The position numbers and the translations under genes are program-made. Below are positions 52,022 to 60,979 of a DNA stretch of 64,000 nucleotides, in pieces. The stretch comes from Thermoplasmata archaeon (lineage in GTDB: Archaea; Thermoplasmatota; Thermoplasmata; Thermoplasmatales; GCA-001856825). The notes under the pieces are model-generated. The model saw nothing but the letters and a program-made list of their open reading frames with translations. It had not been told where the DNA came from and searched no databases. The DNA is taken from NCBI GenBank assembly GCA_021792255.1, contig JAJYUZ010000002.1, positions 349,071 to 413,070 on the forward strand, read 5' to 3'. Every line of letters begins with the position of its first letter. Position 1 is the first letter of the stretch.

Positions 52022-53308
52022 CTACGGTTTGAGTCTTCTGATAGTCCTAGGGAATGGAATTGCTTTGTTTATGTGATCCAAACCCGCAAGCCAAGTCAGA
52101 AGTCGGTCGACTCCAAGTCCGAATCCCGAGTGTGGAACGCTCCCATAACTTCTTAGGTCTACGTACCACTGATAGTCTTCGGGGTTGAGATTGTCACTCT
52201 TCATTCTGCTTATCAGCTCATCCTTGTCCCAGATTCTTTCCCCTCCTCCTATAACCTCTCCATAACCCTCTGGAGCAAGGAGATCATGGTTGAGAACGTG
52301 AGAAGGATCCTCTGGGTCCTGCCTGTGATAGAATGGTTTGAGTTGAGTCGGGAAATTGTATACGAACATAGGTTTGTCGAAATCTTCAGTTATTGCTCTC
52401 TCTTCCTTTTCTCCCAAATCTGCCATATCGCTCAGCTGCAACCCCTTCTGCCTACCAATGTCGATCACCTTTTCGTACCTGTATCGGTAAAACGGCTTTT
52501 CGATCGCCTTGACCTTATTGAGATCCCTCTTTACCACTTCCAGTTCTTCCTTATTTGAACTCAGGAGACGCTGCGCTATGAAGACGATCAGTTCCTCCTC
52601 AAGATCCATCATTTGCTGATTTTGGACCCATGCCGCTTCTGCCTCATAATGAGAGAACTCGGTGACGTGCCTTCTCGTCCTAGATTTTTCAGCCCTGAAA
52701 GAGGGAGAAATCGTGTAGACACTCTCAAGAGAAAACATGAAGGCCTCCAAGTAAAATTGAGAGGATTGGGTGAGATAGGCTTTTTCTCCGAAGTAAGGGA
52801 CCTCGAACAGCGTCGAGCCACCTTCGACCATTCCTCCGACGAACATAGGGGGGTCCACTTCGTGGTAATCTTTCTCTCTCATGAAGTCTCTGATTGAATC
52901 CAGGATTGTATCCCTCATCTTCATTATTGCAGTCATCTCTCTGCTTCTCAGCCAGAGATGCCTTATGTCGAGCAGAAATTCATCGCTCTTGTCCTTGGTT
53001 ATTGGGAAATTCTCTGCTATCTGGTATATCCTGATTTTAGTTGCGTGTATTTCATATCCAGTCACCGCCTTAGGTTCCTTCGAGCACTTTCCTTCGACTT
53101 CGATAGAACTTTCTATGGTGGCTCTCTTTGCGAGCTCAAATTCTTCGGAGGAAACTACGCCTTTCTCGACCACGACCTGAACGATGCCGGTAGAATCTCT
53201 AATGACCGTGAATATAAGTCGTCCAGATTCTCTTGATCTATAGACCCAGCCTCTGACACTGACTATAGTATCTACGCACTTATCGTTCAGGATATCGCCT
53301 ATATGCAT
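52022..53308 (-). CDS. asnS: Asparaginyl-tRNA synthetase (class II, AsnRS-like)
   Basis: Class II motifs SPSFRAEKSRTRRHVTEFSHYEAE, YLTQSSQFYLEAF, GFGLGVDRLLTWLAGLDHINKAIPFPRTIRRLKP; start set to the MHIGDIL Met. Confidence 0.88.
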   Translation of the reverse strand: MHIGDILNDKCVDTIVSVRGWVYRSRESGRLIFTVIRDSTGIVQVVVEKGVVSSEEFELAKRATIESSIEVEGKCSKEPKAVTGYEIHATKIRIYQIAENFPITKDKSDEFLLDIRHLWLRSREMTAIMKMRDTILDSIRDFMREKDYHEVDPPMFVGGMVEGGSTLFEVPYFGEKAYLTQSSQFYLEAFMFSLESVYTISPSFRAEKSRTRRHVTEFSHYEAEAAWVQNQQMMDLEEELIVFIAQRLLSSNKEELEVVKRDLNKVKAIEKPFYRYRYEKVIDIGRQKGLQLSDMADLGEKEERAITEDFDKPMFVYNFPTQLKPFYHRQDPEDPSHVLNHDLLAPEGYGEVIGGGERIWDKDELISRMKSDNLNPEDYQWYVDLRSYGSVPHSGFGLGVDRLLTWLAGLDHINKAIPFPRTIRRLKP

Positions 53309-53395
53309 ATTTTCCCTAATTTGTCTCTGTATAAATACTGTATATCCCTGATAATGACAGTACTTTGCGTGAACTATGCTCAAGTCGACCGATAG

Positions 53396-54190
53396 CTATA
53401 GGTGAGCCTGAGACACGAGCGATTCAAAAGTCTCCACGAATTTGGGCGGTGTCTTGTAATCCTTGATCTTTTCTAGAGGAATCCAAGTATACCCAGAATT
53501 CTCAAAATTCAATTTCACTTCTCTCGTTTTTGTCTCCATCAGCATAGGGGTGATTTCATAGAGAATGTCGTTGCTTCTGACATAAATCTCCCCGCCGATT
53601 AGTCTTAAAGACGCTTCTCGAATTCCACACTCTTCTAGCAGCTCCCTTTCTCCCGTCAATTTCGGGGTCTCTCTATTCTCGACGTATCCCGAAACTCCAC
53701 TGTACAAGCCAGGGAAAGACGTTGCATCTTCTGACCTCTTCAGTAAAAGGAGCTTCCCTCCATGTACCAGATACACAGTTGCCACTTTCTTTTCTTGAAC
53801 ACCAAAAATCGAAACTTCCCCCGAAGATCCGTCGATTGATATCTTATCTCCTTTCGAAAAAATATCGAGGGGTACACTATCGACCATAGGTATTTCAGAA
53901 ATTATTGCACCAGTAACAACCATCTGTTCAGCAGACTCGTTAATTAGACCCGTCGGAGCAATGTTCTTACTCTTCAGTTCGAGGAAGGTGTAGGAGCCTA
54001 CAGTAGAGCCCCTTCCCCCTTTGAAAGCCAGGATTTTACCAGTTATGCTAGTGTTTTCACAAGGTCCGGTGGTCACGAACCCCTCTCTGCTAATCTCTCC
54101 TAGTGGAGAGATAAGCTGATTGCAGACCACTACCTCAGAAGAAGCTTTTCCTGGTGACAGACCTCGACCCTTTATCAAGCTATCACCCAT
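53396..54190 (-). CDS. AcnX-type (phosphomevalonate dehydratase-like) small subunit fused to C-terminal Nudix hydrolase domain
   Basis: N-terminal DUF126/AcnX swivel motifs (LISPLGEISREGFVTTG, GGRGSTVGSYTFLEL, APTGLINESAEQMVVTGAIISEIPMVD); C-terminal complete Nudix box GYVENRETPKLTGERELLEECGI at 53621-53689. Confidence 0.85.
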   Translation of the reverse strand: MGDSLIKGRGLSPGKASSEVVVCNQLISPLGEISREGFVTTGPCENTSITGKILAFKGGRGSTVGSYTFLELKSKNIAPTGLINESAEQMVVTGAIISEIPMVDSVPLDIFSKGDKISIDGSSGEVSIFGVQEKKVATVYLVHGGKLLLLKRSEDATSFPGLYSGVSGYVENRETPKLTGERELLEECGIREASLRLIGGEIYVRSNDILYEITPMLMETKTREVKLNFENSGYTWIPLEKIKDYKTPPKFVETFESLVSQAHL

Positions 54191-55356
54191 TTCAGAAGGT
54201 CCATTATTCCCATAAATGCAACTTTCTGGTTGCCGTATCCTTTGAGTGGGAGATAGAATGTTGCCTTTCCAGAGTTAGTGCCAGTGCTGTTGTACTTGTT
54301 GCTTAATGGAGAGACGACCATACAAGTATCAGAAAATACCTTCCCCCCAAAATTCTCTATTATCCTCACTGCTTCACTCGAGTTCGCTTTCACTTCCCTC
54401 GATGTAAAAAGAAATAGGTCAGGTCCCACCTTCTTCTTTCCATTTAAAAGATGAGCTATGTAGTCCAGTTCTTCCGACGATAGGTGCGGACAACCTATTG
54501 CGATTAGTTCCGGTTCCTCTTTGGTCGAATTCTTTTCAATAGTCTCCTCTATCTCCTCTTTTCCTACGTCTATGGTTTCAGGAGAATCTGCTAGGAGTCC
54601 TGATTCTCTGGTAACTCTGTCGACGTGAAACATTGGTATGGAGGAAGTTGCCGAAAGCGCTGCTGAAAATGCCTTCAGTTCAATTCCTTTGGCTTTTTCC
54701 TGTCCCTTGACGAGCGGGATGCTCTTGTTCAGCTTTGGACCCAGGTACAGACCCAAAGCAGCAAACTTTGTGTAGTCTAGGGGTTCGCTGACATTTACTA
54801 CTACCGTCGCTTTTCTACCTTCGTCCTTGTGGAGTCCATGGTTTGGTGTTTTTCCAATAATGGCAGAAGCTAATGCCGATGGGCCGCTTTCACGATTTGT
54901 CCTTGCACCTATGAGCGAATTTACATAAATAATAGCAGAGCTCTCCGCCCAAGAAATGTGGTCGCCAAAACTAGGCTCATTGTAATAGTAGTATGGAGTG
55001 CAAGTGAAACTGTCCATTACACCCATCTTCTGATAGAGTTCAACAATCTCCATTTGCTTCTTGTGAAAATTTTCGTCGATTGTGACGGGTCCGCCATTTT
55101 CGATATCAAATCCGAGCGGGTTCAGCGAAGTGGGTACAGACACTTTATGAAACATTTTTTTAAGGAACTGTATCCCTCCCTCTCCCACATTCTTGTAGGA
55201 TACCCCCGAAATATGGGCGGACTTGATCGATATAAGTTTGTCTGCTCCACCCAGCTCCCCGAGTGAGTAGAGAAGCCTGATCGCCATACTTAAGGCTTCT
55301 CCTTGCTTTCCATCGAATATTTCCTCTTCCTCTCTAGTAAGCTGCAACCGCTTCAC
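54175..55356 (-). CDS. AcnX-type (phosphomevalonate dehydratase-like) large subunit
   Basis: AcnX catalytic-domain sequence (ISIKSAHISGVSYKNVGEGGIQFLKKM, CTPYYYYNEPSFGDHISWAESSAIIYVNSLIGARTNRE). Confidence 0.87.
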   Translation of the reverse strand: MKRLQLTREEEEIFDGKQGEALSMAIRLLYSLGELGGADKLISIKSAHISGVSYKNVGEGGIQFLKKMFHKVSVPTSLNPLGFDIENGGPVTIDENFHKKQMEIVELYQKMGVMDSFTCTPYYYYNEPSFGDHISWAESSAIIYVNSLIGARTNRESGPSALASAIIGKTPNHGLHKDEGRKATVVVNVSEPLDYTKFAALGLYLGPKLNKSIPLVKGQEKAKGIELKAFSAALSATSSIPMFHVDRVTRESGLLADSPETIDVGKEEIEETIEKNSTKEEPELIAIGCPHLSSEELDYIAHLLNGKKKVGPDLFLFTSREVKANSSEAVRIIENFGGKVFSDTCMVVSPLSNKYNSTGTNSGKATFYLPLKGYGNQKVAFMGIMDLLKWVIA

Positions 55357-55970
55357 CGTTGTGACAGTAATTCTTTAATTTTTTGTTTTGGGTCTGGAGA
55401 CAATATGATGCTCCTACCTATAATTAGGTAGTCCGCTCCGCTGTCCAGCGCCTCTTTATAGCTTCCTCCCTGAGCTCCTACTCCGGGGGAAAGTACCTTG
55501 AGTCCAGAGATGCGTTTCAGAACCTTTATCCTCTCTGGATGAGTGGCAGGAGCTACTATCCCGTCCGCTCCCTCTTCCTTGGCGATTATTGCTATCTTCT
55601 CTGATTGACCAGTAATGAAATCTGCATTTCCCGGATGAGACATTTCAGCTACGACGTATAGGCTTTCAGCTACTTTTCTGACTTCCTTCACCACGTCCCG
55701 TCCCACGAATCCTTGAACTATAATGCCAGATGCGCCGTGTGAGGTCAGAGTCTTGGCGATGCTTTTGGACACCTCAGGTATATCCGCAATCTTGATATCG
55801 ACTATAACTTCTCCAATTTTTGATACCCGATCTATGACTCCTGCACCTTCGCTGAGAATCAAAGGATACCCTACCTTGTAAGCGCTGACGTAGCCTCTTA
55901 CTTCCTCCGCTATTCTCAGTGCCCTGTCGGTTTCCTCCACATCCAGTGCTAGAATGATGTTGCTGTCCAT
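55353..55970 (-). CDS. pyrF: Orotidine 5'-phosphate decarboxylase
   Basis: IILALDVEETDRAL, VIVDIKIADIPEVSKSIAKTLTSHGASGIIVQGFVG, GAQGG, DYLIIGRSII. Confidence 0.93.
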   Translation of the reverse strand: MDSNIILALDVEETDRALRIAEEVRGYVSAYKVGYPLILSEGAGVIDRVSKIGEVIVDIKIADIPEVSKSIAKTLTSHGASGIIVQGFVGRDVVKEVRKVAESLYVVAEMSHPGNADFITGQSEKIAIIAKEEGADGIVAPATHPERIKVLKRISGLKVLSPGVGAQGGSYKEALDSGADYLIIGRSIILSPDPKQKIKELLSQR

Positions 55971-59394: not shown

Positions 59395-59533
59395 TTTAGA
59401 TAATTATATCTAAGAAGCCTAAAAAAGTTGTGATATCTTCTAATGTACTTGTTTGCACCCATGCGTGCATTGCAGTGCGCACATAGGTGCACGATACGTA
59501 ATATACTGTTTAAACTTGTTTAGTCGACCTAAG

Positions 59534-60979
59534 ATGATTCCAGAAAAGACATTTTACGCGATTGTGGTTGCCTTGATAATTGTGGGAGGAGTGGGTATAG
59601 GAGTTGCGTACGATCACGCAGTTTCTGTTACCACCCAACCTAATCCCAATAATCATGGAAATCAAACAACGCAAAGTGCATACTACCCACTGACCATCGC
59701 GATAACTACTAACAACCAGTTTAACAGTACGATCGGAGCCCAACCTGCGTTCTTTGTTTTAAAAGACGGTAAACTTCTGTCAACAGCTAATATCAGCCTT
59801 CCCGCAAATAAGCAGATAAATCTGACCATCATAAACTACGATGACGGAAGTGCCCCAACTCCAGCTCAATACGACAAGGTTGTCGGAACGGTTAACAGTC
59901 AGATAACGATATTTAACAATACCAACGTCAACTCGACTTTCAATGGACAAAGCATTAATGTTGTAGGTGGCGAGAAAGTTACAATAGTTCCAAACGGCAC
60001 TGTGGCCCACACATTTACGATACTGAACGGGTCAACTACAGTCGTAAACATCCCCATAACACCCTCCTCAATAACACAGACCTCATTCACACTCAGTTCT
60101 GGTAGCTACACCTGGCAGTGTGAAGCTGCCTGCGGTTCAGGCTCTTCTGGATGGGAAGGAGCTATGTCAACTCCAGGATGGATGGCAGGAACGGTCTACG
60201 TTTCTGGATCTGTACCTGCACCCATATCCCAGATATACTACGCGACTCTCGTAATCACCACGGAAAATTTCTATAACTCTACGGTTGGAAACCAACCAGC
60301 CTTTTTCTTGCTACAAAATGGGACCTTGTACTCAACGGCCGTGCTGAATTTTCCTTCCAATAAGGAAATAGGACTCACTATAATCAATTATGATGATGGT
60401 AATGGATCCACTCCAGCACAGTTTTCCAATGTGACAGGAACAACCGGTAATCAGATATCGATTGTGAACAATACAAACGTAAATTCTACCGAAGGTAGCG
60501 GCAGTATTAACGTGGTTGGAGGGGCCTCGGTCTCTCAAGTTCCGGATTCAAACATTGCTCATACGTTCACAGTTCTAAGTGCGAGTAACAGTGTCGTATT
60601 GAACATTCCAATAGTACCTTCTAGCACAGAATTTGCAACTTTTACTCTGAACTCAGGAAACTACAGCTGGCAGTGTGAAGCAGCTTGTGGCTCAGGCTCT
60701 TCCGGATGGGAAGGAGCTATGTCAACTCCAGGATGGATGGCAGGAACGGTCCTAGTATCGGCTTCCTTGTCTGCACAAGCATTCTACAATACGCCTGCTG
60801 TGATTCAATCATTATCTCACCTCTTCGAAATTAATGATCTGCTATCTTCTTCGACAGGTCTGAGTCTACTCGTGCACTCAATGATCCTGATCCACTCAAC
60901 TGTGGCCTCATTCAACATAGGCAAAGCAGCTGTCGCGACTCAGTCTCTAAATATGCAGAGCGCGGTCCACGTTTCATGA
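59534..60979 (+). CDS. Secreted/membrane-anchored tandem cupredoxin-like protein
   Basis: N-terminal TM; two homologous domains each ending in (V/I)AHTFT..WQCEAACGSGSSGWEGAMSTPGWMAGTV; start set to ATG 59534. Confidence 0.75.
   Translation: MIPEKTFYAIVVALIIVGGVGIGVAYDHAVSVTTQPNPNNHGNQTTQSAYYPLTIAITTNNQFNSTIGAQPAFFVLKDGKLLSTANISLPANKQINLTIINYDDGSAPTPAQYDKVVGTVNSQITIFNNTNVNSTFNGQSINVVGGEKVTIVPNGTVAHTFTILNGSTTVVNIPITPSSITQTSFTLSSGSYTWQCEAACGSGSSGWEGAMSTPGWMAGTVYVSGSVPAPISQIYYATLVITTENFYNSTVGNQPAFFLLQNGTLYSTAVLNFPSNKEIGLTIINYDDGNGSTPAQFSNVTGTTGNQISIVNNTNVNSTEGSGSINVVGGASVSQVPDSNIAHTFTVLSASNSVVLNIPIVPSSTEFATFTLNSGNYSWQCEAACGSGSSGWEGAMSTPGWMAGTVLVSASLSAQAFYNTPAVIQSLSHLFEINDLLSSSTGLSLLVHSMILIHSTVASFNIGKAAVATQSLNMQSAVHVS

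Follow-up and report, generated by a model that had tools for sequence, protein, structure and literature searches.

The 64,000-nt window, by which we mean the whole stretch of DNA analyzed here, carries on its minus strand a single ORF in which a swivel domain of the kind found in the small subunit of AcnX (phosphomevalonate dehydratase [PMDh]) is followed by a Nudix domain (Table 1). The initial annotation had located this uninterrupted ORF exactly, leaving its strand unstated, and the Nudix box that it had called canonical matches the consensus pattern at every position.

Table 1. Features of the fusion gene and of the adjoining large-subunit gene in the window.
Feature	Position	Strand	Remarks
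AcnX (PMDh) small subunit-Nudix fusion ORF	53396..54190	-	264 aa, ATG start
Swivel (small-subunit) domain	53804..54175	-	Residues 6-129
GSTVGSY motif in swivel	53990..54010	-	Residues 61-67
Nudix domain	53438..53779	-	Residues 138-251
Nudix box GYVENRETPKLTGERELLEECGI	53621..53689	-	Exact fit to GX5EX7REUXEEXGU
Nudix-box Glu E183, E186, E187	53630..53644	-	Predicted catalytic/metal-binding
AcnX/PMDh large subunit	54175..55356	-	393 aa; PF04412, E 3e-133

Both halves are recognized above the respective Pfam cut-offs, AcnX_swivel_put (PF01989) at residues 27-103 (E 1.3e-22; 80 bits, cut-off 27) and NUDIX (PF00293) at residues 138-251 (E 6.1e-10; 39.7 bits, cut-off 21.1). The order of domains proposed at the outset, swivel then Nudix in one chain, is thereby borne out; that proposal had been made to depend on the C-terminal part matching Nudix profiles, as it does. 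The NCBIfam model for DUF126 covers residues 6-129 with 114 bits, short of the 163 bits that the model sets for a full equivalog, and the small subunit of the Thermococcus kodakarensis PMDh (PDB 7cnr_B) aligns with the same residues (E 9e-25). The Methanosarcina mazei MutT-related protein (3grn) aligns with residues 143-255 (E 3e-6). The junction is nearly free of linker (residues 129-136), since the swivel match extends to about residue 129 and a Nudix strand begins at about residue 132, so that contact between the two domains is likely. An AF2 model of the fusion, based on an alignment of six close sequences, gave blocks with a pLDDT of mostly 70 to 90 for residues 131-260; the swivel half scored below 50, and the domain arrangement is not readable from this model.

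The large-subunit gene lies directly upstream of the fusion, its 3' end overlapping the fusion ORF by 16 nt, and is itself overlapped by 4 nt by pyrF (55353-55970). Its product was found to match the large subunit of T. kodakarensis (7cnr_A; E 1e-93), and Cys119, Cys289, and Cys345 align with 7cnr_A cysteines at the cluster-ligand positions. The ligand assignment derives from the Aeropyrum pernix PMDh, for which mutagenesis showed that Cys122, Cys297, and Cys356 are needed (PMC10040528). The window thus has the same tandem genes, with matching large and small subunits, as the archaeal PMDhs of type IIb AcnX (A. pernix; T. kodakarensis, 7cnr/7cns), but the T. kodakarensis small subunit has 134 aa and no Nudix domain, whereas that of the window carries one at its C terminus. 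The single-chain AcnX system has the AcnX large and swivel domains in common with this pair but places the swivel first, holds a different cluster, and has no Nudix domain; the window's large subunit reaches 246 bits against the single-chain model, for which the cut-off is 700. Elsewhere in the window, a secreted-looking protein of 508 aa (59453-60979, plus strand) contains a repeat of about 190 aa in two similar copies, with CEAACGSGSSGWEGAMSTPGWMAGTV in each, and resembles a duplicated cupredoxin-like domain.

The window belongs to an assembly of 1.59 Mb in 11 contigs that is about 94% complete. In this genome, the genes for isopentenyl phosphate kinase (IPK) and type II IPP isomerase (IDI-2) are neighbors, and two UbiD homologues are present, one of which (420 aa) adjoins a polyprenyl synthase gene; the single GHMP kinase inspected adjoins a threonine synthase-like gene. 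Because IPK, IDI-2, and UbiD homologues are all encoded, the Nudix domain substitutes for none of them, and its candidacy as a replacement for IPK or the isomerase was rejected; the replacement of a pathway step in general is not supported. The isomerase role that had been considered in the initial annotation also finds no counterpart among the known type I enzymes: no IDI model was among the NCBIfam matches to the fusion protein up to an E value of 0.01, and type I IDI was absent from the 50 best fold matches of the Nudix half.

A scan of genome contigs returned near relatives only, and the closest named records are from Thermoplasmatales, I-plasma among them. In a set of 40 relatives, the fusion was present in all four sampled genera of the window's family (f1) as well as in families f2 and f3; f4 possesses the small subunit alone (120 to 126 aa), and f6 neither form. 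A survey across 300 genomes of the class Thermoplasmata returned full-length fusion matches in many families, and reading of the loci provided 91 distinct one-frame fusions with an intact swivel motif, from 91 genomes and 21 families. The fusion is therefore genuine and widespread across the class and not a single oddity. That a frameshift or misassembly has merged two separate genes, a concern raised at the outset, has a negligible probability given these 91 single-frame cases. A frame break does exist in the close relative I-plasma (G007/L036), but it is within the Nudix domain, away from the junction. In that record (ATMD01000004.1, L036:5001-5785, the same gene as L012), the frame is broken at about residues 150-182, owing either to an error in the assembly or to the recent disappearance of the Nudix domain from that species.

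The swivel GST and the subsequent G are kept in all 91 fusions, and GST is almost invariant across 40 standalone small subunits. All three glutamates at the catalytic positions of the Nudix box are found in 86 fusions (of the five deviating ones, one has an Asp and two have a Gln, and in the other two the box is ruined), and the same triad is present in every degenerate-swivel or standalone Nudix copy that covers this stretch. These figures indicate that both halves have been preserved as functional domains in all but a few fusions. Most pairs were saturated in the dN/dS analysis, and the three closest pairs (dS 0.05 to 0.2), although low in dN in both halves, are too few to be of use. In a tree of the Nudix domain (129 columns), the deep branches are without resolution, so one fusion event and several are not separable; its sole informative feature is that the eroded forms of f15 are nested among the f15 fusions. 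As judged from these sequences, the window's protein is very probably bifunctional, consisting of a PMDh small subunit and a working Nudix hydrolase. Of the interpretation in the initial annotation, the conserved PMDh-type/Nudix fusion with its catalytic residues kept and the downstream modified-mevalonate enzymes in the same genome thus stand, and the isomerase and the replacement of a step do not.

Two of the deviating fusions, L076 and L078, have kept the swivel intact although their Nudix box is dead. Along with the near absence of a linker and the existence of noncatalytic Nudix domains in multidomain proteins (PMC5389931), they would fit a regulatory sensor, in which the Nudix domain binds, and perhaps slowly hydrolyzes, a nucleotide or prenyl diphosphate and so tunes PMDh activity or assembly. 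However, such a function is improbable in view of the glutamate triad in the great majority of fusions and in the eroded and standalone copies, and the Nudix domain also persists in lineages described below, family f14 and genus g36 of f15, where PMDh is absent and it could regulate none.

Elsewhere in the phylum, in classes other than Thermoplasmata, separate genes encode a small subunit of about 130 aa and an orthologous Nudix protein of about 130 to 155 aa, and these genes are usually distant from each other, as at C1:630924 and C1:1618638 in genome G411. Both genomes read from f56, a family of another class, contain a same-strand run of AcnX large subunit, small subunit, coiled-coil protein, and Nudix protein, in which adjacent genes overlap or sit a few bases apart. 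The coiled-coil protein in this run has about 300 aa (L240:4292-7337; L243:246-3293). Families f4, f7, f13, f17, f21, and f26, in which the small subunit is standalone, gave weak partial Nudix matches only and no Nudix orthologue, and several of them carry an operon of MVK, a UbiD homologue, a PF21758 protein, AcnX large subunit, and small subunit. The occurrence of PMDh lineages without the orthologous Nudix protein implies that its activity is dispensable. Complete or partial versions of this operon were observed in two classes (L136, L139-L144, L230, L231, L233, L234, L236, and L241). The PF21758 protein (PAC_bac, proteasome-assembly-chaperone-like; 105 to 108 aa), encoded between the decarboxylase and dehydratase genes, may be an unrecognized accessory, perhaps a flavin-cofactor chaperone.

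Several lineages retain the Nudix domain behind an eroded swivel. Seven of the eight f14 genomes gave matches in the fusion survey of the class (E 1e-44 to 1e-46), and in the two proteins read the swivel motif is gone from the N-terminal part while the Nudix catalytic residues are intact. No real match to the AcnX large subunit was obtained in any of the eight (best E 1e-6). The neighbors of the eroded gene, PPase, RPB7, IleS, and FEN1, some of which we take to be such from reading the sequences, are those of the fusion and large subunit in f35, and the neighborhood is partly common to f24, f33, and f34. All seven f14 genomes tested possess a mevalonate-diphosphate-decarboxylase-family protein and IPK; these archaea (L128, L129) apparently have a GHMP-type decarboxylase in place of PMDh. 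In f15 g36, most genomes are likewise without the AcnX large subunit and with a decarboxylase of the mevalonate-phosphate/diphosphate type, and the eroded-swivel Nudix form is retained in several of them. Six eroded N termini, when aligned, match the swivel profile along its length (hhalign E 3.7e-12). Genome G078 of f15 has complementary copies, L078 with an intact swivel and a ruined Nudix box and L101 with an eroded swivel and an intact box. Of the two species in g41 of f20, one combines an eroded swivel with Nudix and the other has a 152-aa Nudix protein alone; both have the AcnX large subunit, which in the one read is within the MVK-UbiD-PAC-AcnX-small subunit operon. Taken together, the unfused genes, the Nudix domain outliving PMDh, and the complementary half-dead copies form a pattern in which two separately selected activities, carried by separable domains, have been joined in most of the class.

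The f14 genomes also bear on a possible link to cofactor synthesis. UbiX requires dimethylallyl phosphate (DMAP), and a UbiD homologue occurs in most of the sampled fusion genomes, so that the Nudix domain might make DMAP for UbiX and thereby give the UbiD-type decarboxylase its prenylated FMN. However, a UbiD homologue is absent from six of seven genomes of f14, a family that nevertheless retains the Nudix domain, and this disfavors prenylated FMN supply as its sole role. The operon-type lineages, in turn, have UbiD but no orthologous Nudix protein, and we consider DMAP supply very unlikely.

In terms of profile and fold, the nearest relatives of the Nudix half are 3grn, BdRppH, MutT/MutT2, Ap4A hydrolase, and NudI, of which 3grn and BdRppH match best. 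The best profile match is M. mazei 3grn (E 5e-15), which is also among the best fold matches; it is a single-domain protein only about 25% identical to the Nudix half, and its function is undetermined (PMC5389931). Foldseek identified 3eeu_A with an E value of 1.4e-9, and the plant NUDX1/GPP hydrolases match weakly. Standalone orthologues are found directly behind the genes for PurQ (f48) or PINA ATPase (f37, f60, and f67). A few genes away are geranylgeranyl reductase and GGGP synthase in f37 and UbiA prenyltransferases in f48 and f60, a proximity of isoprenoid-lipid genes that is no more than suggestive. AsnS adjoins the fusion in the window's genus (52022-54190), and in f63 the neighbor of the standalone Nudix gene is AsnS-like (L216:3976-6166), which may be a coincidence.

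Enzymes of the MutT, RppH, and Ap4A type act on damaged nucleotides, RNA 5' ends, and dinucleotides. The structural relatives and the PurQ and PINA ATPase neighbors would agree with a nucleotide house-cleaning hydrolase whose joining to the small subunit was a chance product of gene order without any metabolic link, as would the retention of the Nudix domain in lineages lacking PMDh and, without swivel, in f20. Closeness to nucleotide Nudix structures is nevertheless weak evidence on substrate. If the join were accidental, its reappearance as an operon elsewhere, as in f56, would be surprising, and the fusion has lasted over 21 families with both motif sets intact. House-cleaning appears a serious and only somewhat less likely alternative to the reading favored below.

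The reading that we favor couples the Nudix domain to prenyl or mevalonate phosphates, as had been suggested in the initial annotation. The swivel half would pair with the upstream-encoded large subunit to form PMDh, which is predicted to convert mevalonate 5-phosphate to trans-anhydromevalonate phosphate. The Nudix half, as a putatively active hydrolase, might convert IPP/DMAPP to IP/DMAP and so oppose IPK or, alternatively, return stray mevalonate diphosphate to mevalonate 5-phosphate. It would then be tethered to the committed dehydratase and serve there as a flux valve or for repair. That the fusion combines a PMDh small subunit with a hydrolase of isoprenoid-precursor diphosphates, yielding monophosphates in this capacity, is a possibility we put at somewhat below even. 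Of 41 genomes examined, 39 have an IPK match above the cut-off of its family; the IP/IPP pair is therefore available for cycling, although IPK presence does not discriminate between the readings.

This coupling is consistent with the one-frame fusions and their conserved motifs, the adjacent large subunit with all three cysteine ligands, and the placement of IPK by IDI-2 and of a UbiD homologue by polyprenyl synthase in the window's own genome. It is strengthened by the f56 operon of PMDh and unfused Nudix and by the isoprenoid-lipid genes near standalone orthologues. The retention of the Nudix domain where PMDh is lost cuts both ways: the presence of a decarboxylase in f14 and f15 g36 fits a role in precursor metabolism, yet survival without PMDh, like the PurQ and PINA genes as closest neighbors of the standalone form, weakens a tie to the dehydratase. 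Further points against it are the nucleotide enzymes as nearest relatives, the six families with PMDh but no orthologous Nudix protein, and the altered catalytic residues in 5 of the 91 fusions.

Precedents for such a substrate are available. The plant enzymes AtNudx1 and AtNudx3 dephosphorylate IPP and DMAPP opposite IPK (PMC6779861), and the arrangement proposed here would be analogous in placing a Nudix hydrolase alongside IPK, but the plant enzymes have no dehydratase fusion and are not close in sequence to the window's Nudix domain. Escherichia coli NudB, a single-domain dihydroneopterin triphosphate diphosphatase, promiscuously dephosphorylates IPP and DMAPP (PMC4459108); the window's protein is only weakly similar to it (21.5 bits), far below the family cut-off of 103. 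More tentatively, we propose a dedicated Nudix domain for IPP/DMAPP or mevalonate diphosphate that is built into PMDh, is kept free or with an eroded swivel in lineages whose upstream pathway has changed, and might do in archaea what the IPK/Nudix control point does in plants.

The initial annotation knew of no description of this fusion, and our literature search agrees. Among open-licence PMC papers, none was found on aconitase X or phosphomevalonate dehydratase with Nudix, and DUF126 with Nudix returned one paper, which is unrelated. The main text of a 2024 survey of archaeal isoprenoid pathways (PMC11052028) mentions neither Nudix nor a fusion. Domain databases presumably display the architecture.

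Many archaea build their membrane lipids through the modified mevalonate pathway, the control of which is poorly understood. The class-wide fusion, the unfused operon, and the repeated splitting point to one testable second activity tied to the dehydratase. If the Nudix domain acts on IPP/DMAPP or mevalonate diphosphate, a balance point between monophosphates and diphosphates would have been located in archaea, and the enzyme would be available for isoprenoid engineering.
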